Part shown: positions 6,331 through 23,948 of the stretch, in pieces
Position numbering within the stretch: the stretch's first letter is position 1
Layout: each line of letters starts with the position of its first letter
IMG/VR virus record: IMGVR_UViG_3300032736_000027
Location: 1-30,683 of that record
DNA from: a virus
Length of the DNA stretch: 30,683 nucleotides
Reading direction: 5' to 3' (one strand)
Made by a program: the position numbers and the translations under genes
Notes under the pieces: generated by a model
What the model was told of the DNA's origin: nothing
The model's input: the letters and a program-made list of their open reading frames with translations, nothing else
Databases searched by the model: none

Positions 6331-6335
6331 ATTAA

Positions 6336-6685: not shown

Positions 6686-6714
6686 TATAATACTAAAAAA
6701 GTACGTTTTTGTTT
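6686..6714 (-). promoter_or_regulatory. Phage late-type promoter, copy 1 (portal-fibre-lysis module)
   Basis: On the minus strand AAACAAAAA (6714-6706) is followed by exactly 10 bases and TAGTATTATA (6695-6686). The same two blocks with the same spacing occur at four other places in the window. The spacer CGTACTTTTT is almost identical to that of the plus-strand copy at 16944. The start codon at 6683 lies 2 bases downstream. Confidence 0.85.
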
Positions 6715-6725
6715 TTTTTTATATT

Positions 6726-6751
6726 AAAAAAGGGGTGACAAACGCCACCCC
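6726..6751 (-). terminator. Rho-independent terminator after the 175-aa tail protein gene
   Basis: On the minus strand GGGGTG (6751-6746) pairs with CACCCC (6737-6732), with an 8-base loop, and is followed by TTTTT(T). It lies between the stop at 6779 and the promoter at 6714, so it separates two transcription units. Confidence 0.88.
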
Positions 6752-6778
6752 CATTGATAAAAATAAAGAAAAAAATTA

Positions 6779-7306
6779 TTAACCAATTACAATTACACCA
6801 CCAGCATCAACTAAATTAGTATATAGGAAATTAGCAGGAGTTTTTTCAGTTCCAGTTAAGGAAATTGTATATCCGCTTAAATCTCCCATAGCCAATCCAG
6901 TTACAATAGTTCCGCCAGTAACTGACATACCATTATATAAACCAGCAACAAAGAAACTACCATTTTGGTCTTCAACAATTACATGAGGATGTCCAAAAGT
7001 TATAAGTTTAATCTCTTTGTGGTCTTCTTTTGTTAATTTTGGTAAGGTTAACTCTATAACCTGCTCGAAAGCAGTAGTACCGTTTTCCACAGAAGACTGA
7101 ATATTTTGAGTTAAAGATGAAGAAAAATGTACTTCATATTTGTAGCAATTTACAGCAGCTCCAAGGGTATCAATTACATCCGTATCTGAGACATTATAAA
7201 CAATTCCGTCAAAATCGCCATAATTTACAAAATAGATATTTTTTATTCCCCCTACTGAATCTTTGCAGGGTTTTAATCTCCCTAAGGATAAGTTTTCGCA
7301 AGCCAT
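6779..7306 (-). CDS. Probable major tail tube protein
   Basis: This 175-aa protein begins MACENLSLGRLKPCKDSVGG and contains I-K-N-I-Y-F-V-N-Y-G-D-F, E-N-G-T-T-A-F-E-Q-V-I-E-L, and S-G-Y-T-I-S-L-T-G-T-E-K near the C-terminus. This layout (MAC...GGIK.VYF.NY, then ENGT..FEQ, then a final beta hairpin) is recurrent in Bacteroidota phages next to capsid genes and fits a tail-tube or closely related beta-barrel virion protein. It sits alone between two strong terminators, directly after major capsid. It would thus be made by partial read-through at high level, as expected for an abundant virion protein. A head decoration role is the main alternative. Confidence 0.6.
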   Translation of the reverse strand: MACENLSLGRLKPCKDSVGGIKNIYFVNYGDFDGIVYNVSDTDVIDTLGAAVNCYKYEVHFSSSLTQNIQSSVENGTTAFEQVIELTLPKLTKEDHKEIKLITFGHPHVIVEDQNGSFFVAGLYNGMSVTGGTIVTGLAMGDLSGYTISLTGTEKTPANFLYTNLVDAGGVIVIG

Positions 7307-7345
7307 TATTTTTGGGTTTTATAAGATTATTAAAGTTCGTTTAAT

Positions 7346-7365
7346 GGGGAGGTTTTACCCTCCCC
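7346..7365 (-). terminator. Terminator after major capsid gene
   Basis: GGGGAGG (7346-7352) pairs perfectly with CCTCCCC (7359-7365) around a 6-base loop. Flanking GTTTAA (7339-7344) and TTAAAC (7368-7373) extend the dyad. The hairpin lies 16 bases beyond the capsid stop and upstream of the 7306 start. It probably attenuates rather than fully blocks transcription, since no promoter is visible for the following gene. Confidence 0.85.
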
Positions 7366-7380
7366 TTTTAAACTTAAATA

Positions 7381-8304
7381 TTAAGAGTAGTAAACTACTT
7401 CAGCACCGTAAGCGTAATTTACGCCAGCAGTATATCGCATCACAAATCTACAGTTTTGAGAACCGTCCAAGTCGCTCATATCAAGAATTTTAACCTCGTT
7501 TAAATCGCTTAGTAAAGAAGTTCCAAAAAACAAGTTAGAAGCCTGTGCCGCTACAATTTCATTAGAAGGCAAGCCTTCAGCTAAAAATATTTTAACACCA
7601 TCGAAAACTAAATCTCCAAGAGCTTGGTTAGTTCCTCTGCCTTCAAATCCATTTGCTCCTAAACCCGAAGCACCAAATCCACCTAAAGCACGAGTATATG
7701 CTCTGTAAACGTTTTGTGGTACATAGATGAATAAATCTTCTTTACCGTAAAGAGCAGCAGGGATAGCATCAACAACTTTTCCAAGTTCTTCAATAACATT
7801 TGCAGCAGTAACAGTAGTCCCAACAACATCCACAACAGTAGCATCAGCTAAAAAACGAGCTAAAAAGCCATCATATTCACCAGCGTTACCAGTAGCACCT
7901 TGCCAGATAATAGTTTCGTTAGCAGTAGCAACTTCAGCAGCAGTTTTCGCTATAATGAAATCAGAAAGGTTAGGAGGAAGGTTGTCATTAGCAGAAAGAC
8001 CCATTGCAATTGCTTCCCAATCATCTCTAAAGTCTGCTTTACATAAAGTAAAGTTTACTTGAAATTCTTCAGGTTGTAGGATGTTTTCAGTTAGCGTAAT
8101 AGTTCCAGTTGGTGTAAAATCACAAGTACCATCTTTTATCAAGTCGCTCATTGCAACTTTTTTCAAAACTTGTTTGAATTTTACATTTGGTTTTACTGTA
8201 ACCCCACCATTTCTAATAGTAGAAGGGTTTAAAAGAGCTGCTTGGATGTAAGGTAAAGCAAGTTCTCCAGCATAAGTAGTAGTTACGTTTGTAGTAGTAG
8301 CCAT
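7381..8304 (-). CDS. Major capsid protein (HK97-fold family)
   Basis: This 307-aa protein has the size and sequence style of HK97-fold capsid proteins of Bacteroidota phages: an N-terminal arm, then F-T-L-C-K-A-D-F-R-D-D-W-E-A (about 96-109), an E-loop/P-domain region, and a C-terminal A-domain with R-F-V-M-R-Y-T-A-G-V-N-Y-A-Y-G-A-E-V-V-Y-Y. It lies directly after a protease and a scaffold-like gene, the canonical order of a procapsid operon. A strong hairpin terminator follows. Composition is rich in Ala/Gly/Thr with more GC-rich codons than the early genes, consistent with high expression. Confidence 0.88.
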   Translation of the reverse strand: MATTTNVTTTYAGELALPYIQAALLNPSTIRNGGVTVKPNVKFKQVLKKVAMSDLIKDGTCDFTPTGTITLTENILQPEEFQVNFTLCKADFRDDWEAIAMGLSANDNLPPNLSDFIIAKTAAEVATANETIIWQGATGNAGEYDGFLARFLADATVVDVVGTTVTAANVIEELGKVVDAIPAALYGKEDLFIYVPQNVYRAYTRALGGFGASGLGANGFEGRGTNQALGDLVFDGVKIFLAEGLPSNEIVAAQASNLFFGTSLLSDLNEVKILDMSDLDGSQNCRFVMRYTAGVNYAYGAEVVYYS

Positions 8305-8329
8305 TTTTTAATTGTTTTTTATTGTTAAA

Positions 8330-8779
8330 TTATTTTTTAAATAAACTCTCAAAAACATAATCTTGAGTTGTTTTTTGTCTGCCCTGAGAATATAAGTGTA
8401 AATTTTTAGCCTCAACTTTAACCTCTGGGTTGTGTTTTAAAGTATCGGTGCTGTCATTAGATGAAAGTTGTTGGTCAACAGCGGCATCTTCTTTAGGAAG
8501 TTCCTCTGGTACGTCTTTACTTTCTTCAGGAGAAATAACTTCAAGTACTTTAGTGTACATTTCTTTCATTTCTTTGATAGCGTCATCAAATTCAGCTCTT
8601 GAAATATACTCAACTGAAGGGGCATCCTCTTTAGGTGCATCAGCAACGGGTACATCTTCAATAGGAGCATCGGCAAGGGCAACCTTTTCGATAACTTCCG
8701 CTATGTTAGCTTCGTCTTTTTTCAAAGCAGAATCCGCCAACTTCACGATTTCATTAAATAAATCTTTTGGTGTTTTCAT
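8330..8779 (-). CDS. Probable capsid scaffolding protein
   Basis: This 149-aa protein is strongly acidic and low-complexity, with a run of A-D-A-P-x-E-D-V/A-P type units around residues 36-55. A helical segment (R-A-E-F-D-D-A-I-K-E-M-K-E-M-Y-T-K-V) follows, and then a basic C-terminal tail (Y-V-F-E-S-L-F-K-K). Scaffold proteins are typically acidic, helical, poorly conserved, and have a basic C-terminal hook that contacts the capsid. It lies between the XkdF-type protease and major capsid, exactly where a scaffold is expected. The assignment is by composition and order. Confidence 0.72.
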   Translation of the reverse strand: MKTPKDLFNEIVKLADSALKKDEANIAEVIEKVALADAPIEDVPVADAPKEDAPSVEYISRAEFDDAIKEMKEMYTKVLEVISPEESKDVPEELPKEDAAVDQQLSSNDSTDTLKHNPEVKVEAKNLHLYSQGRQKTTQDYVFESLFKK

Positions 8780-8834
8780 AATTAATTAAACATTTTATAC
8801 ATTAATACTAAATAAACAATCTTTTGTATTATTT

Positions 8835-8984
8835 TCAAATATTACCAATCCCTTGGTTTATCAATTCCCCTTTGCAACACTTAGATGAGTATGTTTTACC
8901 ATCTTTGCATAAACACCCCCTTTTACCACCCTTTGGAGATGAATAAGAACCAACATCTTTAGGGTCTATTATTTTCTTTTTCAT
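8835..8984 (-). CDS. 49-aa Cys-rich small protein in the head module
   Basis: This frame runs 8984-8835 and encodes 49 residues. Its ATG overlaps the stop of the protease gene as ATGA, so it is probably translationally coupled. The product is basic and contains G-K-R-G-C-L-C-K-D-G-K-T-Y-S-S-K-C-C-K-G, a CxC...CC arrangement that could bind a metal or form disulfides, and it ends Q-G-I-G-N-I. I recognise this pattern from small proteins of Bacteroidota phages beside the capsid genes, but no function is known to me. Confidence 0.82.
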   Translation of the reverse strand: MKKKIIDPKDVGSYSSPKGGKRGCLCKDGKTYSSKCCKGELINQGIGNI

Positions 8985-9577
8985 AATTCAGGATTTAATT
9001 CCTCTAACAATCTTTTTATTTTATTCATAACGCTCAAATCTTCTTCATCAATTTCTTGCCCCTCGTTAAACATACCCTCAATAGAAAAACCTAAATACTT
9101 ACCTTCTTTTACATCTTTCCAAACATCCTCGTTCTCAATCCGCATAGCAACCGCCCAAGAACCTTTAGCAGCTTTTAAACCATAGACAGCAGTCTTATCT
9201 TTTTCAGTATCTTCAACAATCCAAGATTCTGTAAGATATACACCCTCCACTTCCATTTCGTGTTCTACCGTTGCATTGTGAATTTTCAAAGATTTTAGAT
9301 ATTTTTCAGCAGCTTTTCTTACCGTTTCTTTACTGAAAGTTATATTGTATTCAGATACACCATTATTACGGTATATCTTTTTGTCAGGAACTAAGGCTAG
9401 TCCTATAACTAGCCTTTGCTCCTCATCCATTGTTTTCAATTCAATTTTATGCTCAGATAACGCTATCCAATTTTCTTCGGTTGCAGGAAATTCAACTAAG
9501 GAAATAGCATCTATTCCAGAATCATCTGAATCGTCTATAAATAATTCTACAGTTTCTAAATCGTCGTAGTTTCTCAT
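8981..9577 (-). CDS. Prohead protease, XkdF-like
   Basis: This 198-aa protein matches the phage XkdF family of putative serine proteases. Recognisable blocks are R-L-V-I-G-L-A-L-V-P-D-K-K-I-Y-R (55-70), a beta/alpha core, A-T-V-E-H-E (102-107), E-S-W-I-V-E-D (117-123), A-K-G-S-W-A-V-A-M-R-I (137-147) and G-K-Y-L-G-F-S-I-E-G (159-168). By analogy with prohead proteases, H106 and S165 are candidate catalytic residues. It probably matures the capsid or removes the scaffold. It is the first gene after the promoter at 9594-9622 and heads the procapsid operon. Confidence 0.88.
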   Translation of the reverse strand: MRNYDDLETVELFIDDSDDSGIDAISLVEFPATEENWIALSEHKIELKTMDEEQRLVIGLALVPDKKIYRNNGVSEYNITFSKETVRKAAEKYLKSLKIHNATVEHEMEVEGVYLTESWIVEDTEKDKTAVYGLKAAKGSWAVAMRIENEDVWKDVKEGKYLGFSIEGMFNEGQEIDEEDLSVMNKIKRLLEELNPEL

Positions 9578-9593
9578 TTTTATTATTTTATAT

Positions 9594-9622
9594 TATAATA
9601 CTATTTTTTTTGTTTTTTGTTT
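9594..9622 (-). promoter_or_regulatory. Phage late-type promoter, copy 2 (head module)
   Basis: On the minus strand AAACAAAAA (9622-9614), 10 bases, then TAGTATTATA (9603-9594). The upstream block reaches the first base of the tape-measure stop codon. The protease ATG at 9577 is 16 bases downstream of the element, with no obvious Shine-Dalgarno sequence. Confidence 0.85.
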
Positions 9623-11541
9623 TAAATTCCAGCAGCAGCAATTGCATTTGATTCTATATCTCCAGCCTTTTTAACATCATCGTAAACTACATACGCTCTT
9701 GTTGGTTCAGAAGTAGAACCTGCAACCGTTTCAGCCAATTGGTTTTGACTGCTAGCACCTACAACGTTGAAGTTTGGAGTGAAACCTCCACCTCCTCCTC
9801 CTCCTCCAGAAGGAGCAGAACCTCCACCTCCGCCACCTCTCGGAAGTTTAACTGCCATTATAGCTTTTACATTTGCCAATCCACTAGCGACCGCTACGCC
9901 AGCAGCTAGCGCAGCTCTAATTGGTGCGTCTGGTGTTGGTATGGACAACTGACTTGCATAAGCTTGTTGTGCGGACAAATATGTAGATATTAATGTACTA
10001 GCTGCGGAAGCAACTTTCCCAGCAGCTGTTTCTTTTCCTATTAAATTTCCTATACTACTTAAAGCATTAGCGTAAGAACCTAAAGCTCCTATTTTAGCAT
10101 CGGCTTCTAGTTTTGATATTTTTTTTAAAGCATCTGCATTTTCTTTAGCTAAAGCCACCTCTTTTTCGCCTGCTTCCTTTTCGGTTTTTACAGTTTCATC
10201 TGAAGCCTCTTTTACTATTGCATTAATCCTATCCCAACTTTCTTGCTCTACTGCTTCAATTAATTCTTTTGAAGCTCCTAACGCTTCTAGCTCAATTATA
10301 TCAGCTTCAGCTTTTCTTTCTATTTCTGCTATTTCTCTTTCAAGTCCTTTTAAAAAATAAAAATCTTCTACATCACTTATTTTTTGCAGACCCTCAGCTT
10401 GTTTTTTTGCCTTCTCATCTTGTTTTTTTGCCTTCTCATCACTAATTTTTTTCTCTGCCTCATCAGCCTTAATTTTATCATCCGTAATTTTTTGACTTGC
10501 AGCAGCTCCTTGACTTTCTAATCCAGAAATTTTAGTAGTAAGTAATTTTTTTTCTTGCAGCCGTTTAGTATCTAATTCAGTTACTTTTGCTATTGCTTCG
10601 GCTTCAGCGGTTAAAGCTTCTTTGTTAGATTTATATAATGTATTTTCAGAAACAAGCGCGTCCCTTCTCAATACAGCAACCTCTATTTCTTTAGCCGTTA
10701 AATCATCTTCAATTGCGGAAGCTTCTTTTAAAAATTTCAGCCGTTCCGCTTGCGAATATTTATTTTTTTCTTCTGCTTTGTTTCTTAAATCTGCTTTCTT
10801 TTGTTCGGCATTAGCTCGCTCTATTATTAGAGCTCTTTCAACGGTGTCGGCTTTTGCTCTTTTATCGGCTATAACTCCAGCAGCTTCATTATCCTTTTTT
10901 AATTGTTCTGCATATTCTTTTGTGCCTTTTACTAACTTTCCTAATTTTACTGATACATCTGTAACACCGAGAGCAACCTTACCCATAGCATTGACGGCAA
11001 CGATACCAGCTTCTTCAAATTTGCCCGTAAAAAATAAACCAATAGCCTTCCCGACTGCTGGTATTAATTCCAGCATACCGTTAAATCTATTTATAATGTT
11101 ATCTTTTATTAAATTGCCTAGATTTTTAATTGATTGTACTGGATTCTCAAAAACACCAATTACTAAATCTCCAAAGTCGCTAAGTACATCAATTAAGTTT
11201 CCAGTAACAGAACCAATAACCCCCATTAATTTAGCAAACTTATTTTGCCCTCCTTCGCTGGATTTAAAAGCGGCAATGATAGCGGATATTGTAATAATCA
11301 GCAAGCCTAAACCGCTCAAAGCAATGGCAACACCAACAGATTTGAACCCTAGCGCAACGCCTTTAATACCGCCCACCATATTTCTAAATCCACTAACCGC
11401 TCCCCCAGTCATTGAATCCAGCTTACTTGTCAATGCACCACTACTAGCACCAACGCCATTAATGCCTGTTTTTAGTTTTTGAGTTTCTCCGATTGCAGCA
11501 GAAGCATCAACATTTATCTTTATGTTATTTTCAATATCCAT
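9622..11541 (-). CDS. Tail tape measure protein
   Basis: This 639-aa protein sets tail length. Residues ~55-135 hold hydrophobic segments (for example V-G-V-A-I-A-L-S-G-L-G-L-L-I-I-T-I). Residues ~210-480 are charged, Ala/Lys/Glu-rich coiled coil. Residues ~490-570 are a second hydrophobic Ala-rich region. A glycine-rich linker (two G-rich runs around S-A-P-S) leads to a C-terminal F-N-V-V-G-A-S-S-Q-N-Q-L-A-E-T-V and A-Y-V-V-Y-D-D-V-K block. That C-terminal signature recurs in tape measures of Bacteroidota phages. Using the usual ~1.5 Angstrom per residue, the length predicts a tail of roughly 95 nm. Confidence 0.9.
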   Translation of the reverse strand: MDIENNIKINVDASAAIGETQKLKTGINGVGASSGALTSKLDSMTGGAVSGFRNMVGGIKGVALGFKSVGVAIALSGLGLLIITISAIIAAFKSSEGGQNKFAKLMGVIGSVTGNLIDVLSDFGDLVIGVFENPVQSIKNLGNLIKDNIINRFNGMLELIPAVGKAIGLFFTGKFEEAGIVAVNAMGKVALGVTDVSVKLGKLVKGTKEYAEQLKKDNEAAGVIADKRAKADTVERALIIERANAEQKKADLRNKAEEKNKYSQAERLKFLKEASAIEDDLTAKEIEVAVLRRDALVSENTLYKSNKEALTAEAEAIAKVTELDTKRLQEKKLLTTKISGLESQGAAASQKITDDKIKADEAEKKISDEKAKKQDEKAKKQAEGLQKISDVEDFYFLKGLEREIAEIERKAEADIIELEALGASKELIEAVEQESWDRINAIVKEASDETVKTEKEAGEKEVALAKENADALKKISKLEADAKIGALGSYANALSSIGNLIGKETAAGKVASAASTLISTYLSAQQAYASQLSIPTPDAPIRAALAAGVAVASGLANVKAIMAVKLPRGGGGGGSAPSGGGGGGGGFTPNFNVVGASSQNQLAETVAGSTSEPTRAYVVYDDVKKAGDIESNAIAAAGI

Positions 11542-11543
11542 AA

Positions 11544-11684
11544 TTATTTTAAATTGCGTTTAATGTATTTTTTTATATCCTTCCATTGTGATGGAGCTTC
11601 GTACTTTCCTTTCGCAATATCGATATCTTCATCTTTAATATAGAAATCGTTGGAATTTAGCATTGTTAAAATATTCTTTATCAT
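11544..11684 (-). CDS. 46-aa small protein before the tape measure gene
   Basis: A 46-codon frame runs 11684-11544 and ends 2 bases before the tape-measure ATG; it starts 10 bases after the upstream stop. The product is charged and helical (D-F-Y-I-K-D-E-D-I-D-I-A-K-G-K-Y, then P-S-Q-W-K-D-I-K-K-Y-I-K-R). The exact fit between two genes and the protein-like sequence support a real gene. Function is unknown. A tail-assembly helper is suggested only by position. Confidence 0.72.
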   Translation of the reverse strand: MIKNILTMLNSNDFYIKDEDIDIAKGKYEAPSQWKDIKKYIKRNLK

Positions 11685-11694
11685 AATTATTTAT

Positions 11695-14004
11695 TTATGC
11701 AAGCGTTGTGGGTTCGTTCCAATCTTCTGTTTTATCTTCCCAGAAAGTTTCTTCAGTAGTCCAAGTCAGCTCCCCATCTTTAGGAACTACATATATTGTA
11801 TCGTAATCTGTAATTCTTAGTAAATTTAAAACGGTTTTTCCGTTTGTTAAATTTGTCTTTATGCTATCAATCAAAAAAGCAGTACCACCAATTTCAATAG
11901 TATCGTTTAACTTTATTTTTAAAAATACTAATGGTGGAAAATAACAATCAACTACAACCCTCCTTGCATAAGGTGAATATATTCCTGATATGTATTTTTT
12001 ATAAAAGTTATTAAATAATGAATTTTCATTTTCTTCGTATGTAAATTCATCTACCTCAGCATTAAAATGCAATGTTTGAACACCATTATTCATAACATTT
12101 GAAGGGCGGTTATAATTTCCGTTAGAAATATAGTCGTTTGACCATTTAACATAACTTGCAGAATATAGCGGCTTATTATTTATGTACATTAGTAAAACTT
12201 CCCCGATAGTTGGCTCTGGTAAATTTTCCTTGTTATCGTTTACAAACCAGCCCCATTGTAGATTTGTGCTAGCGTTATTATGAACCTTTATCATCCTGTC
12301 AAACATCATCTTTTCGAACTTAGGTTCTACGCTATAAGCACCACCATCGAACAGTAAAGAATCTGAAGTTCCAGAACCTTCTCCTAGGCTTTCAGCTTTA
12401 AACTCTACGCTTCCAAAATCATCTCCCGTAAGTTCTCTTTGATTAATAGCTAAGTAAGTTTTACTTTCAGGAAATTTTAAACTAATAGAGCTGTACGGTG
12501 CAATTCTTTCAACTGATGAGCTTGAAATATCCACGTATTTTGTAATGTCATAAGAATAGCCACTACTATAAAAATCATCCAAACTTTTAATATTTATTTT
12601 ATAAGTACCATCAATTTGAACATCCTCAATAGCTACTAAGTTGAAAGTTTTGAATAAGTCTGATAAAAAATCTACAATTTTCTTTTTAGGCATTGACTGA
12701 GGCACTAAAATATCAGATACTAAAGATATAGACCCACCCGTCAATCCATACTCGGCTAACGTAGTACCCCCGCCACCACCAGATTCTTCAACTCTATCTA
12801 AAGATAATGTAGGCGTAATCGTAGAAATGGTATTGTCCGCAATTACGGTACAAACCATTTTCCAAGTTGAATTAAATTGGAAGCCAATATTTAAAACGTT
12901 AATTGTATCTCCGCTTCCAGCTTCTATGTTGGTGATTTCACGTGTAGAAAATAAAGACCCATCTCTATATATTTTCAGCTGCATACTAAAAACTCCTACA
13001 GACCCAATAGAATCAACATTGAATTGGCAGTTATAATAAACAAACTCACCTCCACCAGCTACAGATTCTAGCGGTCTTAATTCAGTCCCAGATAAAAAGT
13101 CCCATTCATTATCTCCACCAACAATATTTAAATTTCTAGTAAAGGTAAAAGTTTCATTAGCGTTTACACCTTGTCGATATGTTAAATATCCTTTTTCTCG
13201 ATGCAACCAAATAAACAAATCAAAAAAGAAAGGAGAATTATTTAACCATTCTTTATTAAATTGAATTTGAGGGAAATCCTCCTCAATAGCTTCTATTATT
13301 TTAATGGCTCTTATGGCTGGTTTTAAATCCGTAAAGTCTAACCTGTCCGCACCAACAACAGTATATTCAGCAGCTCTTTCTTCATTTGTAAGAATCCTGT
13401 GCATACCTTGCTCATCATATTCAAAGCCTCTAGTATGTGATAAAAATGGATATTTAATATCACCGTTTGCATTTCTAGTAATAACAGGCTCCGCTCCTGA
13501 AAAGTCAAAAGCTAATCCAGCTTCAAAACCATCTATAATATTTGCTATTGAATTCTCGTGATTAAACTTGCCTAACGATGTTAAATCTTTAAGTTCAGAA
13601 GTCCCTAGTATGTCTTTTAATGATGACAGTTCCCCAAAGAACTGTACATCATAAGATGAAGGATAATTATCTTTTAAACTTACCTTATTCAGCTTTATAT
13701 ATCCTTTTTTATAATCAAACCCGTTAAGTTTTAATATTGCTGCGTGTTTTTTCCTAGAATCAAAGCCATTTAATACATTATGATTGTGGAAATACTTAAA
13801 TATCTTATTGTTAATCTTCGATGCTGGTAGTTTAAACTGATTAGTATATGCAGTCATTACCTTACCAATATCCTTGGCATCCTTTATAGAATCATTTAGA
13901 GATATATTCACGCTAGTATCTAGGTCTGCGTGTGTCCAATTATCAATTAACTCATTATTAGCGTCTAATTCGGTGCTATTTATGTATAAACTTACTTGAA
14001 TCAT
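11695..14004 (-). CDS. Large tail-tip/baseplate protein
   Basis: This 769-aa protein begins MIQVSLYINSTELDANNELI. It contains F-K-L-P-A-S-K-I-N-N-K-I-F-K-Y-F-H-N and N-G-F-D-S-R-K-K-H-A-A-I-L (residues ~57-90), a block widespread in tail genes of Bacteroidota phages. The middle is beta-rich with a glycine run (G-G-G-G-G-T). The last ~200 residues resemble a hub or tip protein, with Y-A-R-R-V-V-V-D-C-Y-F and a closing beta domain. Size and place in the tail operon fit a tail-associated or baseplate hub protein that anchors fibres. No lytic domain motif is visible. Confidence 0.68.
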   Translation of the reverse strand: MIQVSLYINSTELDANNELIDNWTHADLDTSVNISLNDSIKDAKDIGKVMTAYTNQFKLPASKINNKIFKYFHNHNVLNGFDSRKKHAAILKLNGFDYKKGYIKLNKVSLKDNYPSSYDVQFFGELSSLKDILGTSELKDLTSLGKFNHENSIANIIDGFEAGLAFDFSGAEPVITRNANGDIKYPFLSHTRGFEYDEQGMHRILTNEERAAEYTVVGADRLDFTDLKPAIRAIKIIEAIEEDFPQIQFNKEWLNNSPFFFDLFIWLHREKGYLTYRQGVNANETFTFTRNLNIVGGDNEWDFLSGTELRPLESVAGGGEFVYYNCQFNVDSIGSVGVFSMQLKIYRDGSLFSTREITNIEAGSGDTINVLNIGFQFNSTWKMVCTVIADNTISTITPTLSLDRVEESGGGGGTTLAEYGLTGGSISLVSDILVPQSMPKKKIVDFLSDLFKTFNLVAIEDVQIDGTYKINIKSLDDFYSSGYSYDITKYVDISSSSVERIAPYSSISLKFPESKTYLAINQRELTGDDFGSVEFKAESLGEGSGTSDSLLFDGGAYSVEPKFEKMMFDRMIKVHNNASTNLQWGWFVNDNKENLPEPTIGEVLLMYINNKPLYSASYVKWSNDYISNGNYNRPSNVMNNGVQTLHFNAEVDEFTYEENENSLFNNFYKKYISGIYSPYARRVVVDCYFPPLVFLKIKLNDTIEIGGTAFLIDSIKTNLTNGKTVLNLLRITDYDTIYVVPKDGELTWTTEETFWEDKTEDWNEPTTLA

Positions 14005-15114: not shown

Positions 15115-15595
15115 TGTTTTTTAATGATTTTAATAATTCGTCTGAAACTTCTATCGATACGTTTATTGTTAATTCTTTTGATAATTCTTGTATTACATTT
15201 TTGCTTAAAGCAAAATTTAAAATCTTACTACCACCATAACCAAATCTTTTGATAGTACCTTTATTATAAATAGAACGCGCTATTGCAATTGCTCCAGCTT
15301 CTTTTTTTACAAACCTTCCAGTTTTTTTGCTCCTTGCCCTAATCCCTTTTTTATCCATCCATTGCATTATGGATTGAATATCTGGAAAAGCCTTTTTAGG
15401 TCTTAACCCCTCATTGATAGCACCAAGTACTTTACTGAAATATATTTCTAAATAGTTTTCCCCAGTTTTATATCTTATAGAATTGTAAGTTTTGCCAGAT
15501 GCGTAAGTCCCATCTTGTTTTAACCTATCCTTTATAGATTCGGTAATACTCTTACCATACTTTTCTAATATAGATGCTGTACCTTTAGAATCCAT
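15095..15595 (-). CDS. HK97 gp10-like neck/tail-joining protein
   Basis: This 166-aa, basic protein has the general pattern of HK97-gp10/neck proteins: an N-terminal helix (residues 8-25), then G-K-T-Y-N-S-I-R-Y and F-S-K-V-L-G-A-I-N-E-G. A mid-protein A-R-S-K-K-T-G-R-F-V-K-K segment is followed by A-I-A-I-A-R-S-I-Y-N-K-G-T-I-K-R-F-G-Y. It lies between the 152-aa protein and tail structural genes, with a 1-base or zero gap, as gp10-like proteins usually do. The likely role is head-tail joining or tail completion. Confidence 0.62.
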   Translation of the reverse strand: MDSKGTASILEKYGKSITESIKDRLKQDGTYASGKTYNSIRYKTGENYLEIYFSKVLGAINEGLRPKKAFPDIQSIMQWMDKKGIRARSKKTGRFVKKEAGAIAIARSIYNKGTIKRFGYGGSKILNFALSKNVIQELSKELTINVSIEVSDELLKSLKNNGTTNS

Positions 15596-16054
15596 TTAAC
15601 AGATGCTTATATCATTCGGAACTGTAATTACAAAAGTGATGCCCCAACCAGCTAATTTATTTTCAAATTCTTCGTATAGCATTTCAGCTTCAGGATTGTT
15701 AACTAAAACATATTGCTGTTCAGCTAAAGCACCCCTAGTACTCCTCACCGATTCTATTAAACTGTTTACAACTTGAAGTTGTGTATTTAACACATCTTGC
15801 AAGTTGTTAGAACCATAAAATGTATTTTCATATTCCTTACTTTCATCAACAACATCCAAACACATTAAGTCAATAGTGAATTTAATAGTAGAGCCTTCCA
15901 TAGATGCCTTATTCATCCAGAAATGAGATACTGGGAATATAGTGGTCTTACTAGTATCTATACTTTTGAAATCCCCAAATGATACGTGGTTAACATTTGT
16001 ATCATTTTCCAAATGTCCTTTAATAGCATCTAATATGTTATAAACTTGTTTCAT
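15596..16054 (-). CDS. Probable tail terminator/completion protein
   Basis: This 152-aa alpha/beta protein begins with a helix (Y-N-I-L-D-A-I-K-G-H-L), followed by alternating strands with F-P-V-S-H-F-W-M-N, F-T-I-D-L-M-C-L-D-V-V-D, and a final W-G-I-T-F-V-I-T-V-P. The ATG overlaps the stop of the frameshifted chaperone product as ATGA, which suggests coupling to the shifted reading. Size, fold style and place before a gp10-like gene match tail terminator or tail-to-head joining proteins. No sequence signature proves it. Confidence 0.55.
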   Translation of the reverse strand: MKQVYNILDAIKGHLENDTNVNHVSFGDFKSIDTSKTTIFPVSHFWMNKASMEGSTIKFTIDLMCLDVVDESKEYENTFYGSNNLQDVLNTQLQVVNSLIESVRSTRGALAEQQYVLVNNPEAEMLYEEFENKLAGWGITFVITVPNDISIC

Positions 16055-16835
16055 CTTCTAGCTTTTTTAATCCTGTCGGCTTCTAATTTATTTTTTTCCT
16101 TTTCAAATTGTAACCACGTTAAGGCTTCGTGGATTTGTATATCGGTAACCTTGTTAAGTCTAAGAGCATTTCCTCCAGCGAGGGCATAGAGGCTTTGATA
16201 CCAACCATACTTTCCTGCAAAAGCTGATTCTGCTCCTCCGACAATTCCATTTCCTCCAGAGCTTTCATTGAAAAGTTCATAGTATGTATCGATAATTTCA
16301 TTCCTAAACGATAAAAAAAAACCATCGCTCCTAAAGCAATCCCTAAAGGCATCTCTTGCATTATATAAGAATGCTTTTCAGTCCCTTCGTATTCCGTAAT
16401 ATTATAAAAATCCTTTTTACTCCATTGTTTTGGAACGGGTCTAAATAAAACCGCCATAGCCTTATGCCAATCTTCAACATTCCCAAGGTAATTATCTAAA
16501 TCTATATATTCCCCTAGTGATATTTTAGATAGGTTTGGTATAAAGCCAAACTCTATCGTTACATCATCTGTTCCCGTTATCTTAAACCTCCTTAATAAAG
16601 GCGTTTCCTCTTTAAACAACTCGGATATGTGATTCCCTACAGCCTCAAACTCATCAACGGGCATCTTATTAACTGTGATCAAGTCCACGCCACAAATAAT
16701 TTCTATAAGCTTCATATTTAAAAAGCCAGTAGTATCGTTATCCTTGTTAGCTTCGTATATTTTCATATACTTTTGATAGTCTTTTAACTTAATATCGTTA
16801 ATGGACTTCGGTAATTTTAATTTTGTTGCAAGCAT
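16051..16835 (-). CDS. Tail assembly chaperone -1 frameshift (G-T-like) product
   Basis: A -1 slip at T-TTT-TTT (16320-16314) joins 174 zero-frame codons to an 87-residue -1 frame that starts at 16314 and stops at 16051, giving 261 residues. The -1 part has a folded-protein look: E-I-I-D-T-Y-Y-E-L-F-N-E, then K-Y-G-W-Y-Q-S-L-Y-A-L-A-G-G, then E-A-L-T-W-L-Q-F-E-K-E-K-N-K-L-E. Its TGA overlaps the next ATG. The stretch 16051-16118 has no other coding explanation. Frameshifted G/GT chaperones at this operon position are well established in long-tailed phages; efficiency here is unknown. Confidence 0.82.
16119..16835 (-). CDS. Tail assembly chaperone, unshifted (G-like) product
   Basis: This 238-aa product is the zero-frame version. 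It is helical and begins MLATKLKLPKSINDIKLKDY, with V-L-F-R-P-V-P-K-Q-W near residue 136. At codons 172-174 it crosses a run of nine T residues (16321-16313). Beyond the slip site the zero frame continues for 64 residues (L-G-M-K-L-S-I-H-T onward to T-K-P), which also look protein-like. It is the first gene of the tail operon after the promoter at 16854-16882. Chaperones of this type coat the tape measure before tube assembly. Confidence 0.72.
   Translation of the reverse strand: MLATKLKLPKSINDIKLKDYQKYMKIYEANKDNDTTGFLNMKLIEIICGVDLITVNKMPVDEFEAVGNHISELFKEETPLLRRFKITGTDDVTIEFGFIPNLSKISLGEYIDLDNYLGNVEDWHKAMAVLFRPVPKQWSKKDFYNITEYEGTEKHSYIMQEMPLGIALGAMVFFYRLGMKLSIHTMNFSMKALEEMELSEEQNQLLQESMVGIKASMPSLEEMLLDLTRLPIYKSTKP
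16314..16320 (-). promoter_or_regulatory. -1 frameshift slippery site T TTT TTT
   Basis: In the zero frame the codons are GTT TTT TTT TAT, so T TTT TTT allows both tRNAs to re-pair perfectly one base back. The site lies in nine consecutive T residues on the coding strand. After slippage the frame reads TTA TCG TTT and stays open for 87 residues. Confidence 0.82.
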
Positions 16836-16853
16836 ATTTCTTTATTAATATAC

Positions 16854-16882
16854 TATAATACTAAAATAATGACTTTTTGTTT
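16854..16882 (-). promoter_or_regulatory. Phage late-type promoter, copy 3 (tail module)
   Basis: On the minus strand AAACAAAAA (16882-16874), 10 bases, then TAGTATTATA (16863-16854). The chaperone ATG is 18 bases downstream. It is back-to-back with the plus-strand copy at 16944-16972, leaving about 60 bases between the two. Confidence 0.85.
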
Positions 16883-16943
16883 TATTATAAGAAAAATTTA
16901 TAGTACTATAAGAAAAAACTATTGAAAAAGTGGCTTAAATACA

Positions 16944-16972
16944 AAACAAAAACGTACTTTTATAGTATTATA
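16944..16972 (+). promoter_or_regulatory. Phage late-type promoter, copy 4 (divergent, into gene-poor region)
   Basis: AAACAAAAA (16944-16952), 10 bases CGTACTTTTA, then TAGTATTATA (16963-16972). This is the only copy on the plus strand. It points away from the tail module into about 750 bases lacking a convincing gene, which implies a transcript that is mainly RNA or encodes only a micro-protein. Confidence 0.83.
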
Positions 16973-17001
16973 TATATAGAAGGTTAAATAGACCTTAATC
17001 T

Positions 17002-17160
17002 ATGGAAGGAGGAAACTCCTATAAACTTCAAGATGGTTTAATAAACCTGCACTTGTTGGGTCGGATAACCCTATCCGTTGGCATTGCAGTTATTCTTTAT
17101 TGTTTTCTAGCACCCAGTAACTATTCAACCAACCGAACCATAAAACCGCTAACAAGTTAA
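17002..17160 (+). CDS. Alternative reading of the RNA region: 52-aa membrane micro-protein
   Basis: An ATG at 17002, 29 bases after the promoter element, opens 52 codons ending TAA at 17160. The product, MEGGNSYKLQDGLINLHLLG and onward, has one hydrophobic stretch (I-T-L-S-V-G-I-A-V-I-L-Y-C-F-L). The stems described for the RNA fall inside this frame, so either the frame is chance or both functions coexist. I rate the protein reading lower because the sequence symmetry is better explained by RNA pairing. Confidence 0.25.
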   Translation: MEGGNSYKLQDGLINLHLLGRITLSVGIAVILYCFLAPSNYSTNRTIKPLTS

Positions 17161-17351
17161 TTAGCAATTAATATCTAAAAACAATTGAGGGGTGCAAAAT
17201 ACCTTTTGTAAAATATAAAAGAAAGGTGGGGTTGCCCTCAAAGGCAAACACACCACAAACAAAAAAGTATAACCATAGGTGATAATATACATCTATTAAG
17301 TATAACCAAATACATTCTACTTTATAAATATCTACTTAACAATATATATAT

Positions 17352-17390
17352 GTTTATATTTTTCTCGCTTTGAGGCTTCAAAATATAAAC
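17352..17390. repeat. 11-bp perfect inverted repeat, possible end of divergent RNA
   Basis: GTTTATATTTT (17352-17362) and AAAATATAAAC (17380-17390) flank a 17-base centre that itself contains CTC...GAG. There is no long T run after it, so a terminator role is tentative. A protein-binding dyad is the alternative. Confidence 0.5.
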
Positions 17391-17425
17391 TATAAAACCA
17401 ATAAAGTAAAATACCTTCAACTATA

Positions 17426-17504
17426 TTGAAAACATTAAAATGCATTACTCAATTTTCATAACATTCCTTTTACGTTGAAAACATTAAAATGCATTACTCA
17501 ATTT
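17426..17504 (+). repeat. 30-bp perfect direct repeat, two copies, 49-bp period
   Basis: The same 30 bases occur at 17426-17455 and 17475-17504, with a 19-base non-repeated spacer. Each copy has weak internal symmetry: TTGA at one end, TCAA near the other and AATGCATT in the middle. Two copies with no cas genes do not make a CRISPR array. Their place beside iteron-like repeats suggests a protein-binding site in an origin or regulatory region. Confidence 0.9.
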
Positions 17505-17520
17505 CTAAATCTTTCAATTT

Positions 17521-17650
17521 ACATAAAAACTTATCAACAACTTGTTAACAACTTATTATCTATAAACTTTAACAAAACTTTAACAAAACTTTAACGTATT
17601 GATAACTAAATAGTTATAAGTGTAAAATTTAACATAAAGTTAACATAATA
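17521..17650. other. Candidate replication origin with 11-bp phased repeats and DnaA-box-like site
   Basis: This very AT-rich stretch holds AAACTTTAAC three times (17564, 17575, 17586; period 11) and TTAACATAA twice (17629, 17640; period 11). It also holds the perfect dyad ATAACTA-AA-TAGTTAT (17602-17617) and TTATCAACA (17531-17539), one mismatch from the DnaA box TTATCCACA. Repeats in helical phase plus a DnaA-like box are typical of initiator-bound origins. The phage also encodes a protein with a DnaA domain-IV signature (20689-21210). A regulatory region is the alternative. Confidence 0.5.
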
Positions 17651-17724
17651 TTGAGAAAAATAGTTGTTAAATACAGATTTCTAATTTCTATTAATTTTCA
17701 AGGCGTTACAAAATTGTTTAGATA

Positions 17725-17928
17725 TTATATTGATGTTATTGTTGTATATTTATTAAACATATTCAGCAGCTTAAAATGGTTTAAGTTTGGCTTATAATAT
17801 TCGTGTAGGTTATCGGTCAATGTGAATGATGTGATGCTATTGTTCTTGTTAGTATTATATACTACAAATGTCTTATTACTTGAGGCTATCTTAATAGCCT
17901 GTATGCTGGTCATTGTATGTTTATTCAT
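17725..17928 (-). CDS. Small hypothetical protein
   Basis: This 67-aa protein is rich in Asn, Thr and Ile (N-K-H-T-M-T-S-I-Q-A-I-K-I-A and onward) and has no membrane segment or domain I recognise. It is the last of three small minus-strand genes that run away from the 18309-18343 dyad. Gaps of 4 bases and 10 bases to its upstream partners suggest an operon. The same-strand spacing is the main support that it is real. Confidence 0.55.
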   Translation of the reverse strand: MNKHTMTSIQAIKIASSNKTFVVYNTNKNNSITSFTLTDNLHEYYKPNLNHFKLLNMFNKYTTITSI

Positions 17929-17932
17929 AAGG

Positions 17933-18058
17933 TTACTTGTTAAGGTTGTTAATACTTTGCTGTAGGGCTTCTAGTTTAGCCCTTAGATAACTTTGGTCAA
18001 GTACATCGGCATAGATGATAAGGTCGTCTATTTGTTCGGTTATTGTTTGCGTGGTCAT
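17933..18058 (-). CDS. 41-aa hypothetical micro-protein
   Basis: A 41-codon frame runs 18058-17933, between two other small genes with gaps of 10 and 4 bases. The product is one long amphipathic helix (E-Q-I-D-D-L-I-I-Y-A-D-V-L and L-R-A-K-L-E-A-L-Q-Q-S-I), probably a coiled coil. The snug fit and regular heptads support translation. Function is unknown. Confidence 0.65.
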   Translation of the reverse strand: MTTQTITEQIDDLIIYADVLDQSYLRAKLEALQQSINNLNK

Positions 18059-18068
18059 ATCTATTTAT

Positions 18069-18260
18069 TTATAATTGGGTTTGTATTTTAGATGTTAGAA
18101 TGATACCTGTTAAGTAAATTGTATCACCCATTAAGTTCATCTGTTCTATTCGGTTATTGTTGTCGTCTAGTTGGTAAACTAAAGTCAAGGATCCTTTAAC
18201 TTCTTTTACTTCAACTAAATCCCCTGAAGGTGCTGTTATTATTTTTCTAGTATTAAGCAT
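18069..18260 (-). CDS. Small hypothetical protein
   Basis: This 63-aa protein reads M-L-N-T-R-K-I-I-T-A-P-S-G-D-L-V-E-V-K-E and is predicted to be a small beta barrel or sheet, with charged D-D-N-N-N-R in a turn. It is the first of three minus-strand micro-genes that diverge from the two plus-strand genes across a palindromic intergenic region. No catalytic or DNA-binding motif is visible. Confidence 0.6.
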   Translation of the reverse strand: MLNTRKIITAPSGDLVEVKEVKGSLTLVYQLDDNNNRIEQMNLMGDTIYLTGIILTSKIQTQL

Positions 18261-18308
18261 ATCTATTTGTTTATAATGTAAATGTAATACTTATATTTGG
18301 TTATTAAT

Positions 18309-18343
18309 ATATGTTAAAGTTTTTTAACGAAACTTTAACATAT
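18309..18343. promoter_or_regulatory. Perfect 14-bp palindrome (operator-like) between divergent genes
   Basis: ATATGTTAAAGTTT (18309-18322) and AAACTTTAACATAT (18330-18343) form a perfect inverted repeat around 7 bases. Each arm contains AAACTTTAAC, the 10-mer that forms the iterons at 17564-17595. A one-mismatch copy lies at 18373-18382. A shared binding protein for origin and divergent promoters is the simplest explanation. Confidence 0.7.
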
Positions 18344-18361
18344 TAGTATTTATATAGGTTG

Positions 18362-18369
18362 TATATTTG
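18362..18369 (+). promoter_or_regulatory. Host-type -7 box for the plus-strand gene pair
   Basis: TATATTTG matches TAnnTTTG and lies 22 bases before the ATG at 18392. No clear TTTG -33 box is present, and the region upstream at the expected distance is the palindrome, which suggests activator or repressor control. Confidence 0.5.
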
Positions 18370-18391
18370 TTTAAACTTTAAATAAAATATT

Positions 18392-18607
18392 ATGATAAAA
18401 ACTTATGAAATTGAATTGTATTATGAACCTATTACGGTGGAAGTTGAAGTAATAGCTGGTGAGGATAGTAGCTACGACTACTGCGGCAGTTCCGCTACTA
18501 TAAACATCCTATCTGTGTATAGCCGAAAGTATCAAACTTTCTTTACTGAAAAGATGTTATGGAGATATTCTATTAAGATTGAAGAAATATTAAAAGAACT
18601 AATTTAA
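18392..18607 (+). CDS. Small hypothetical plus-strand protein
   Basis: This 71-aa protein begins MIKTYEIELYYEPITVEVEV. It has an acidic beta-rich half containing G-E-D-S-S-Y-D-Y-C-G-S-S-A and a helical C-terminal end. With the next gene it is one of only two convincing genes on the plus strand, and they are 10 bases apart. The pair diverges from the minus-strand micro-genes and may be expressed early from a TAnnTTTG promoter. Small divergent acidic phage genes often act on host defence or takeover, but no motif proves that here. Confidence 0.68.
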   Translation: MIKTYEIELYYEPITVEVEVIAGEDSSYDYCGSSATINILSVYSRKYQTFFTEKMLWRYSIKIEEILKELI

Positions 18608-18617
18608 AAATAAAGAT

Positions 18618-18803
18618 ATGGATTATAGTAAAATTGATAATGTAGAAATTGATGGTATAGATACAAATGACTATCCAGACTTTTGCGATGCTTATATAGC
18701 TTCAGCAGATTATGATGGTGTACCTATGACAGATGAGCAACTGGATGAGGTTAACGATAACTCAGACTTTGTATATGCTTGCATAGAAAACCATTTGTTT
18801 TAA
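18618..18803 (+). CDS. Extremely acidic 61-aa protein (possible DNA mimic)
   Basis: This 61-aa product contains 14 Asp and 4 Glu but one Lys and no Arg, for a net charge near -17. The pattern D-Y-P-D-F-C-D-A-Y-I-A-S-A-D-Y-D-G followed by M-T-D-E-Q-L-D-E is, as far as I recall, shared by small proteins in unrelated phages. Such charge is seen in DNA-mimic inhibitors (for example Ocr-type anti-restriction proteins), but the fold here is unknown. It ends directly before the bidirectional hairpin at 18809-18840, which it shares with terL. Confidence 0.72.
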   Translation: MDYSKIDNVEIDGIDTNDYPDFCDAYIASADYDGVPMTDEQLDEVNDNSDFVYACIENHLF

Positions 18804-18808
18804 AATTA

Positions 18809-18840
18809 AAAGGGAACTACCTAACTGAGTAGTTCCCTTT
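18809..18840. terminator. Bidirectional terminator shared by the plus-strand pair and terL
   Basis: AAAGGGAACTAC (18809-18820) and GTAGTTCCCTTT (18829-18840) are a perfect 12-bp stem with an 8-base loop. A-rich and T-rich flanks lie on either side, so it can work in both directions. The terL stop codon at 18817-18819 lies inside the stem, and the last codons of terL form one arm. Confidence 0.85.
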
Positions 18841-20031
18841 ATTCTTACCGTCTGCTAAGAACATAACTCCGTACCTTATAGCATCAAGGTAGTGGTTGTA
18901 TTTATCTATTGGTATTGTCCCTTTTTCCTTCCAAGTATAATTATTAAGTTCCCTAATGATTCCGTGGCTATTCCTATCTATGATTAGATTGTAGTCTTGA
19001 ACCAATGCAATCCCCGAAAGTATGGAACCCTGTTTTTGTTTTGCTGGCTGTATATTTAACCCAGCATCTTTCAGCTCTTGTATTAATCTAGGCTCGTGGT
19101 TATCACATATTACTAAGTCAAGTCCAGCGTGTTGCTTATTCTTTGCTGCTATTTCGCTTGTACTCATTCCTGCCTTTCCGTAACATTCCCTTACATATAC
19201 TTCTCTCTTAAAGTCATCAACTGAAACCTTTACCAAGGTAGTCAAATCTGTGGAAAATCCAAAATCCTGACCGAAGCAAGTTTTATTTAATTCCACATAG
19301 TTTCCTGTTTTCCAATTTGTATATACTGCACCATCCTGCTGGTTTATCCATCCACCTAGTATTTGATGCTCATACTTCTCAGGTCTTTTAAGTTTCATTT
19401 CGTAGATGCTTTGCAAGAAACTATCAGGAAGGTTTGCTTTATTATCTTTGTAAGTTGTATGGATGTAAGTGGTGTCTGTGTGGACACCATTCCATCCAGC
19501 CTCTACTCCTCTGGTTTCAAAGAATCTTTTATATATCCAATGTTCTTTAGTTGTCGGGTTTAATATTAATATAACTCTATTAACATTCTTATTTGAACGT
19601 ACTGACAAATCTATTTTATCAAATATTTCTTCATCGACTAATTCTTCAGCTTCATCAACTACAAAGGTAGTAACTCCTGCTAATGATTTTAATGCTGCCG
19701 TTTGGTTTCCACTAGATGTTTTAATACCTTTAAACATAATTAAGGAATCGGTATGCATATTTATGATCTCATCTCTGGTAACTCTAAAGTCATCATTAGC
19801 ACCCATAATCCCTATTTTATCTACAAACTCTGGTATAATAGATGTATGTGCTGAGGTCATTGTGTATCGTGTAAATAATACCTTATGCCCATTCTCATAC
19901 GTCAATGAATTTAGAAATAGGTTTACTGCAAATGACTTACCCGAACCCCGACCGCCTGTAACTATGTAGTACCTAGTTGAACTTTGAAATAGTGGTATAT
20001 ATTTTTCGTGAACATTTATTTTCAAGCTCAT
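18817..20031 (-). CDS. terL: Terminase large subunit
   Basis: This 404-aa protein is the DNA-packaging motor and nuclease. Walker A is GGRGSGKS (26-33), and Walker B with the catalytic Glu is FVVDEAEE (123-130). Motif III-like V-I-L-I-L-N-P-T follows at about 153-160. The C-terminal RNase H-fold nuclease has Asp in G-Q-D-F-G-F (D256), V-I-C-D-N-H-E (D310) and H-Y-L-D-A-I-R-Y (D383). The length and motif spacing match the Terminase_3 family. The ATG overlaps the terS stop by 4 bases. Both lie under promoter copy 5 and end at the hairpin 18809-18840. Confidence 0.96.
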   Translation of the reverse strand: MSLKINVHEKYIPLFQSSTRYYIVTGGRGSGKSFAVNLFLNSLTYENGHKVLFTRYTMTSAHTSIIPEFVDKIGIMGANDDFRVTRDEIINMHTDSLIMFKGIKTSSGNQTAALKSLAGVTTFVVDEAEELVDEEIFDKIDLSVRSNKNVNRVILILNPTTKEHWIYKRFFETRGVEAGWNGVHTDTTYIHTTYKDNKANLPDSFLQSIYEMKLKRPEKYEHQILGGWINQQDGAVYTNWKTGNYVELNKTCFGQDFGFSTDLTTLVKVSVDDFKREVYVRECYGKAGMSTSEIAAKNKQHAGLDLVICDNHEPRLIQELKDAGLNIQPAKQKQGSILSGIALVQDYNLIIDRNSHGIIRELNNYTWKEKGTIPIDKYNHYLDAIRYGVMFLADGKNKGNYSVR

Positions 20032-20411
20032 TCTTCTTCGTGGTTTACATCGATTGTATTATCTACCTGCTTAGTTTCTCCAGTATTATTTATGAATTGT
20101 ATTATTGGAGCTTTTAATTGAGGTTTAACAGATGCTTTATTGTCCCCACTTTTACCATAGGAGTAGTTCATAAGCATTTCTAGATGCTTATAACTGCCAT
20201 CTTTAGCAGCTTTAGCAACCTCATCCCATACTGCATCTTCAGAACCAAATATATTCCTAATTGCTTTCTGTGATAATTGTTGTGCCCTGTTCTTTTTGGC
20301 TTTTGTAATTTGTGGCTTTGAAACTTGTCCTTCATTCCGAATTACTTTGACCCTATCTTTCCTTTTGTTGTATTTCCGACCGTCATTTGTCCGCTTGTTA
20401 TTGTTTTCCAT
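20028..20411 (-). CDS. Terminase small subunit (candidate)
   Basis: This 127-aa, strongly basic protein lies directly before terL with an ATGA overlap, the standard place for the DNA-recognition subunit. The N-terminal 40 residues are very rich in Lys/Arg/Asn. The central F-G-S-E-D-A-V-W-D-E-V-A-K-A-A-K-D-G-S-Y segment then L-E-M-L-M-N-Y-S-Y-G-K resembles small-terminase-like proteins of Bacteroidota phages. The acidic C-terminal end (V-N-H-E-E-E) may contact TerL. Its ATG is 2 bases beyond the late promoter element, so the mRNA may be leaderless. Confidence 0.72.
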   Translation of the reverse strand: MENNNKRTNDGRKYNKRKDRVKVIRNEGQVSKPQITKAKKNRAQQLSQKAIRNIFGSEDAVWDEVAKAAKDGSYKHLEMLMNYSYGKSGDNKASVKPQLKAPIIQFINNTGETKQVDNTIDVNHEEE

Positions 20412-20413
20412 AC

Positions 20414-20442
20414 TATAATATTACTTTTTGTGCTTTTTGTTT
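20414..20442 (-). promoter_or_regulatory. Phage late-type promoter, copy 5 (terminase genes)
   Basis: On the minus strand AAACAAAAA (20442-20434), 10 bases, then TAATATTATA (20423-20414), the only copy with A in place of G at the third position. The upstream block covers two bases of the preceding stop codon. The terS ATG starts 2 bases after the element. Confidence 0.82.
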
Positions 20443-20692
20443 ATAAATTGCGTTTTTCAAACATATTATTGTATAATTCTTGTATTTTTTTGTATAAATT
20501 TGCATCTTGTTTGTAAAATTCATTCCCTAATTGGTTTCTAGTTCCTTTTTGAATGTTTATTTTAACCTTTGGGACTTCTTTGTATGTTGTTTTTTGGTTT
20601 TTAGCAACTATCGGAAATACTGTGATACCTTTATCCCAACACCATTGAACAGCTTTTATATTTTCAGTAAAATATAAATTTCTATTTCTCAT
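20441..20692 (-). CDS. Small basic hypothetical protein
   Basis: This 83-aa, strongly basic protein includes A-V-Q-W-C-W-D-K-G-I-T-V-F-P-I-V-A-K near residue 14 and a lysine-rich middle. The ATG overlaps the previous stop by 4 bases. It contains nothing I recognise as a domain; the charge would allow nucleic-acid binding. It is the last gene of the block that begins at the promoter at 22697. Confidence 0.65.
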   Translation of the reverse strand: MRNRNLYFTENIKAVQWCWDKGITVFPIVAKNQKTTYKEVPKVKINIQKGTRNQLGNEFYKQDANLYKKIQELYNNMFEKRNL

Positions 20693-23461: not shown

Positions 23462-23948
23462 TATTGTTCAATTCATTAACTAAATCCTGACTTTCTGTAA
23501 AGTATGCATGCAGCTTATTTACATTTTTTATAAAACCTTTATGCGAACAATTAACACAACCGCTAGGTGCAGCTTCATTTTTGCCAAATACAAAGTTATA
23601 AATACCTATAATTCTCTGCTGGTTTTTACCGTCAATCCTATCTCTAGTACGTGAGAAAAAAGACTTTAAATAAAGATAATCTTCCTCATCTAGGCAATTA
23701 ACCGCTTTACTACCAAATGGTAGCTTATCGTTTATTAAATCTTTACGCTTATCACATCCGCAATCCTCACCAAAAAAATCTTTAATAACCTTTTTAATAC
23801 CTGTGGCTTCTGTGATTTTATCAATCACATCGCCAACACCTTTTAATTCTTTATCTATTTGAGCCTGTTTGAAATCAGACCATTGTTTGTACTCTTTTGT
23901 TCGCTTATCAATACTTTCGTAATAAGCCTCATCTTTAAAGTTTGTCAT
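23448..23948 (-). CDS. Conserved Cys-containing phage protein (possible metal-binding)
   Basis: I place the start at 23948 (166 aa) rather than 23993 because the longer version would overlap the sigma gene by 59 bases and adds a non-conserved-looking lead. The protein reads K-G-V-G-D-V-I-D-K-I-T-E-A-T-G-I-K-K-V, then E-D-C-G-C-D-K-R-K, and later G-C-V-N-C-S-H-K-G. The CxC and CxxC pairs could bind a metal. The style is common in Bacteroidota phages. I do not recognise a characterised family; its place after the sigma factor gene makes a transcription-related or nucleotide role possible. Confidence 0.7.
   Translation of the reverse strand: MTNFKDEAYYESIDKRTKEYKQWSDFKQAQIDKELKGVGDVIDKITEATGIKKVIKDFFGEDCGCDKRKDLINDKLPFGSKAVNCLDEEDYLYLKSFFSRTRDRIDGKNQQRIIGIYNFVFGKNEAAPSGCVNCSHKGFIKNVNKLHAYFTESQDLVNELNNNDGL

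Follow-up and report, generated by a model that had tools for sequence, protein, structure and literature searches.

In phage T4, the late genes are transcribed with a phage-encoded sigma factor, gp55, and the late promoters, whose activity is coupled to the sliding clamp, consist of a -10 element alone (TATAAATA). To our knowledge, late gene control in marine Bacteroidota phages is almost undescribed. Phages phiEco32, SU10, and 7-11 carry an ECF sigma factor (gp36) together with middle and late promoters, according to the available text of PMC4281155 and PMC4331800. Among bacterial sigma factors, SigW of Bacillus subtilis has the consensus TGAAAC-N16,17-CGTA(T) (PMC2375139). Regarding phage RNAs, the GOLLD RNA rises at lysis (PMC12286853).

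The window analyzed here is a whole IMG/VR contig record of 30,683 bp, for which megablast among phages returned no near relative. Annotation with PHROGs and Pfam identified genes encoding a holin, an endolysin, a tail fibre, a portal, an S78-type protease, a tape measure-like protein, a terminase, an exonuclease, a phosphoesterase, and a methyltransferase, and all genes identified in this way lie on the minus strand. Additionally, the tail-fibre gene contains seven or more 51-bp tandem repeats (2428-2790), and a DnaA C-terminal-like DNA-binding domain (Pfam Bac_DnaA_C, E 1.3e-7) is encoded at 20689-21210 (-).

Promoter-like sites in the window

The motif AAACAAAAA-N10-TARTATTATA, proposed as a phage promoter in an earlier sequence-only reading, occurred at five exact sites in the record (0.00 expected from 100 shuffles), with the coordinates, strands, and 10-base gap precisely as that reading had given them, and no further match was found in the window even at 3 mismatches (0.46 expected). 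The -10 block was TAGTATTATA at four sites and TAATATTATA at one, the same 4:1 split. All five sites were intergenic, overlapping neighbouring genes by at most 2 nt, and the four attributed to module heads did precede terS, the first tail-module gene, the protease gene, and the gene preceding the portal. The promoters and associated elements are as follows.

6686..6714, minus strand: predicted late promoter 1, AAACAAAAA-N10-TAGTATTATA, preceding the gene (6336-6683) that heads the connector/portal operon
6731..6752, minus strand: predicted intrinsic terminator, 9 bp, GGGGGTG..CACCCCT plus T-run, ending the preceding unit just upstream of promoter 1
8801..8829, minus strand: predicted sixth late promoter, weaker, ATACAAAAG-N10-TAGTATTAAT, before the scaffold gene (8330-8779)
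9594..9622, minus strand: predicted late promoter 2, before the head-maturation protease gene (8981-9577), predicted leader about 14 nt
16854..16882, minus strand: predicted late promoter 3, before the first tail/structural module gene (16119-16835), predicted leader about 16 nt
16944..16972, plus strand: predicted late promoter 4, proposed driver of a structured ncRNA
18840-18809, minus strand: predicted terminator closing the terS-terL unit (hairpin search)
18817..20031, minus strand: large terminase gene (PHROGs/Pfam annotation)
20028..20411, minus strand: probable small terminase gene (terS), first of the packaging unit, preceding TerL, with homologs in the same place
20414..20442, minus strand: predicted late promoter 5, TAATATTATA variant, before terS

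Promoters 3 and 4 are divergent. At four of the five sites the conserved block continues 3' to TARTATTATARTAT, and among the 2.9 million viral contigs searched, this extended motif was found in 5 only; these five all carry homologs of the head genes of the window phage, with the motif preceding the same genes. When a PWM trained solely on the sites of relatives was run on the window, it recovered all five sites and added one more, at 8829 (-), ahead of the scaffold gene; the earlier count of five is thus right for exact matches and short by one weaker site. The sixth scored 16.3 against a shuffle maximum of 16.7 with the relatives-only PWM and 17.0 against 13.4 once the window sites entered the matrix, and it has a counterpart at the corresponding place in G004-G007.

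With respect to promoter type, the -35 block contains AAC followed after about 16-17 nt by the (C)GT position of the -10, as in ECF-type promoters, and AAAC-N16-AGTAT is present at four window sites; the C of CGT is replaced by A, and on that point the window departs from the type. The TAnnTTTG box (the Bacteroidota sigma-ABfr promoter box at -7) was absent from every site, in agreement with the sequence-only reading, and the phiEco32-type -10 motif tAATGTATAtA was not encountered at the window sites, which have TARTATTATA instead. Scans of the window with sigma-70-like consensus sequences remained at background (68 matches, 67 expected), and host-type promoters for the early genes showed no enrichment (12 against 10.3 expected by chance). 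Counting dyads de novo in each genome was abandoned because coding repeats swamped the counts.

Conservation in related phages and a candidate sigma factor

TerL relatives were fetched from IMG/VR, many of the records were read whole, and orthologs were mapped. The closest relatives carry [AG]AACAAAA-N14-TTATATAGT-ATG before terS, in a second group AAAC-N16/17-GTTATCTTA, or a sequence close to it, precedes terS, the first tail gene, the ortholog of the gene at 6336, the protease, and the scaffold, and a third, broad group shows ATAAAC...CGTTATA...ATG, often right after a hairpin-like repeat with a T-run. At orthologous genes, the -10 therefore varies by lineage (TTATATAGT, GTTATCTTA, CGTTATA), with several sites per genome switching together; the C of CGT is present in group D and in P12024S. 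Because the sites within one genome share a variant and orthologous sites elsewhere share another, a trans-acting reader that itself changes is indicated. With a leave-one-genome-out PWM, every genome from G004 to G009 gave 4-5 sites, most of which outscored all shuffles, and the ortholog of promoter 1 is present in G004-G008, G010, G012, and L296-L300; no clear promoter site was seen at terS of G010, G012, G013, and G015. Together with the absence of the host box and the rarity of the motif elsewhere, the orthologous positions in relatives give good support to the dedicated late promoter class proposed earlier. Among distant phages, L244 (4969) and L251 (3938) combine the same TAGTATTATA -10 with a TATACA-like -35 and seem to have converged on the -10 of the window. 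A contig from a 'Euryarchaeota' MAG (L302) encodes a terminase 51% identical to that of the window phage and is probably mis-binned phage DNA.

Among cultivated phages, Nonlabens phage P12024S has a TerL 51% identical to that of the window phage, and its gp33, situated about 0.85 kb before terL, is annotated as Sigma-70 region 2. In this genome, AAAC-N16/17-CGTTA stands directly before gp1, gp5, gp8, gp35, gp41, gp44, and gp45, which accounts for seven of the nine genome matches (1.16 expected), and P12024L has the same seven sites. Both phages also encode an ECF sigma.

In the window, one open reading frame resembled a sigma factor by profile annotation:

23935..24465, minus strand: predicted phage ECF-like sigma factor, 176 aa, with sigma2 and sigma4 (profile, fold, and family matches)

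Members of this family turned up in 35 of 40 related records; in most of these, the gene shares its strand with terL and lies a few kb or less away from it. A profile built from a 50-member alignment had SigW as its best match among PDB sequences (E 5.9e-6), and 47 of the 50 members matched the TIGR02937 sigma70-ECF model and 44 a Bacteroidota ECF family; the window protein itself matched TIGR02937 at 1.3e-5, with a curated ECF score of 24.9 bits below the cut-off of 42.9. Its AlphaFold model (pLDDT 90.5) consists of two confident helical domains joined by a low-confidence linker, and the top Foldseek matches were all ECF sigmas (E. coli sigmaE, SigL, SigH, SigW), with modest E-values (best 4.7e-3). 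The predicted domains, sigma2 and sigma4 with neither sigma3 nor sigma1.1, are those of the ECF (group IV) sigmas. The -10 class tracks the sigma tree with 6 changes, compared to 14.4 in shuffles (shuffle minimum 11), an agreement that is not independent proof because sigma and promoter share ancestry. Two records contained altered sigma genes: G017 bears a second, broken fragment with three stops (6209-6535) beside the intact gene, and G021 (L185/L186), possibly two phages or a chimera, carries terL twice (at 415 and 31438), together with a sigma frame interrupted by two stops.

A host-encoded ECF sigma could also read these promoters, the phage exploiting it while its own sigma-like protein does something else. 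ECF sigmas are indeed numerous in Bacteroidota, and a Bacteroidota ECF model matches the phage family, but such a reader is hard to reconcile with promoter sequences that differ between phages at orthologous sites and switch together within one phage, with a sigma gene nearly universal in the group, and with Riemerella phage RAP44 (43% TerL identity), a flavobacterial phage in which neither the ECF sigma nor the motif was found. We therefore consider a host sigma unlikely. A phage RNA polymerase reading the motif in place of host core and sigma could have escaped the window if the record is incomplete, relatives reaching 35-41 kb; no RNA polymerase gene is annotated in the complete relative P12024S, however, and the -35/-10 layout is sigma-like, which leaves this option with a very small probability. 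The phage-encoded sigma remains the preferred reader. In this respect the sequence-only reading had correctly recognized a promoter class and had missed both the nature of its two blocks, the -35 and -10 elements of a promoter of the ECF type, and the presence of a candidate sigma gene in the phage.

Start-codon distances and a candidate structured RNA

The distance from the AAAC of the -35 to the start codon was 31-33 nt in all 23 promoters listed across the group, and (C/A)GT lay 10-11 nt from the start codon in 20 of these. In the window, the ATG of terS and that of the gene beginning at 6683 both lie 31 nt downstream of the first A of AAAC. Transcription would start at about 32 nt after this A, and the protease, scaffold, and tail mRNAs would then carry leaders of 14-19 nt. 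Since the promoter-to-start distance is fixed, the terS and portal-operon mRNAs are predicted to be leaderless; these heads and others are probably leaderless or nearly so. The sequence-only reading had missed this closeness of motif and ATG at two genes, where transcripts are predicted to begin on the start codon or only a few bases from it, leaving no normal leader. Of the transcripts predicted for Flavobacterium johnsoniae, 87% carry a leader longer than 10 nt (PMC6847099), which would make leaderless late mRNAs unusual for the phylum.

That the motif abuts the ATG of two genes in the window, and does so in many relatives as well, could suggest an mRNA-level translation signal before late genes. 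Other sites, however, lie 16-21 nt upstream of the starts, one precedes an ncRNA, and terS of G009 keeps the motif although its leader is 20 nt, the ATG being about 20 nt further on; because of this last case, we do not regard the motif as a translation signal and assign that explanation a negligible weight. If the motif were instead an operator, bound by a phage activator or repressor working with the host primary sigma, candidate proteins would be the DnaA_C-like product of 20689-21210 and an HTH protein at 24901-25143, but the missing TAnnTTTG box, the two-block spacing of an ECF promoter, and the fixed start-codon distance all favour a core promoter, and we judge an operator somewhat less probable even than a host sigma.

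The plus-strand promoter had been said to drive a gene-poor region. The site is indeed there, but the region behind it contains the following elements, which the sequence-only reading had missed.

16976..17206, plus strand: predicted structured ncRNA, 5' part, with covarying helices shared with six relatives
16980-16995 and 17035-17047, plus strand: predicted ncRNA hairpins within 16976-17206
17088-17092/17118-17122, plus strand: predicted helix Pa, crossing P1 and P2
17099-17105/17179-17185, plus strand: predicted helix P1, crossing P2
17110-17115/17190-17195, plus strand: predicted helix P2, crossing P1
17420..17510, plus strand: two 33-nt repeats, (TTTACG)TTGAAAACATTAAAATGCATTACTCAATTT, with similar repeats downstream of the RNA core in G008-G010

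P1 and P2 are predicted to interlock as a pseudoknot, with Pa enclosing the 5' strands of both, and perhaps the repeats form the 3' part of an RNA extending to 17510. In six relatives, a promoter of the type proper to the group stands on the strand opposite the tail module and precedes an RNA sharing this core, and the two sides of Pa, P1, and P2 remain complementary in each of the seven phages despite differing sequence. Twelve of 19 pairs change on both sides and no cell is unpaired, as counted in a hand-made, N-padded alignment that was fitted to the structure and leans towards it; MAFFT alignments of the full RNA misplaced the core in G003, hence the hand alignment. Slid controls fell to 31-49% paired. 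Four of the seven phages were found by promoter position rather than complementarity; for the complementarity search, about 1.4 chance matches were expected in the 3.3 Mb scanned, and the matches also showing Pa were all at the syntenic place. By eye, five of the phages have a GNRA loop (GAGA or GCAA) on a second hairpin. Rfam gave only chance-level matches on 16700-18900 of the window (E 4-5) and none at the gathering threshold on L167 and L172, the search for the structured ncRNA had no match in P12024S, and no tRNA was found in the window. A 52-aa ORF at 17002-17160, considered as a small membrane protein, was dismissed because the same stretch has covarying helices shared with six other phages. 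The best reading is that the plus-strand site drives a pseudoknotted ncRNA rather than a protein. The closeness to the terminase suggests, as speculation, a role in packaging, assembly, or lysis timing.

Proposed mechanism and comparison with known systems

Taken as a whole, the motif appears to be the late promoter of a flavobacterial phage, of the ECF-sigma type with an AAAC -35 and a (T)AGTATTATA -10, read by the phage's own sigma, a reading to which we give a probability of about 0.86. Early and middle transcription would produce the sigma (23935-24465), which would bind host core RNA polymerase and redirect it to six sites. Five of these would head the terS-terL, tail, scaffold/capsid, protease, and portal units, and one, placed divergently, would transcribe the pseudoknotted late ncRNA. 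We infer the contact between sigma and promoter, the late timing, and the start sites from the genomic evidence. Whether a large group of flavobacterial phages combines a fast-diverging ECF sigma, start-fused promoters, leaderless structural mRNAs, and one promoter copy for a new class of late ncRNA possibly acting in packaging or assembly is, in our judgement, an even call. The probable reader, its sites, and their co-switching are legible from sequence and thus offer candidate orthogonal sigma-promoter pairs, and late genes of uncultured phages could be annotated on the same basis. Likewise, the predicted leaderless mRNAs would test leaderless initiation by Bacteroidota ribosomes, and the ncRNA, with its defined predicted promoter, is a new candidate for a structured RNA.

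When compared to known systems, GOLLD and ROOL resemble the window ncRNA as large pseudoknotted phage ncRNAs of unassigned function, while the window RNA has no Rfam match, no tRNA island, and a smaller known core. T4 gp55 shares with the proposed reader the role of a phage sigma for late genes and an AT-rich -10, and the window phage differs in its clear -35. The window AAAC-N16-(A)GTAT has the geometry of SigW promoters, and AAAC-N16/17-CGTTA of P12024S is nearly canonical; in contrast, SigW is a bacterial stress sigma with an anti-sigma, and the window -10 is AT-rich, with the C of CGT replaced. In phiEco32, SU10, and 7-11, as far as the available text describes them, a phage ECF sigma likewise directs host core RNA polymerase to a few promoters of structural units, but these are enterobacterial podoviruses whose motif tAATGTATAtA lies 6-8 nt upstream of the start, and the available text of PMC4281155 and PMC4331800 mentions no AAAC -35, leaderless pattern, or ncRNA. 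Such a system was not found for Bacteroidota phages in the literature searched, whose scope left out most subscription papers. The earlier statement that the promoter class is undescribed thus holds for the motif and the phage group but not for the principle, since phage ECF sigmas with late promoters are already known from phiEco32 and 7-11.
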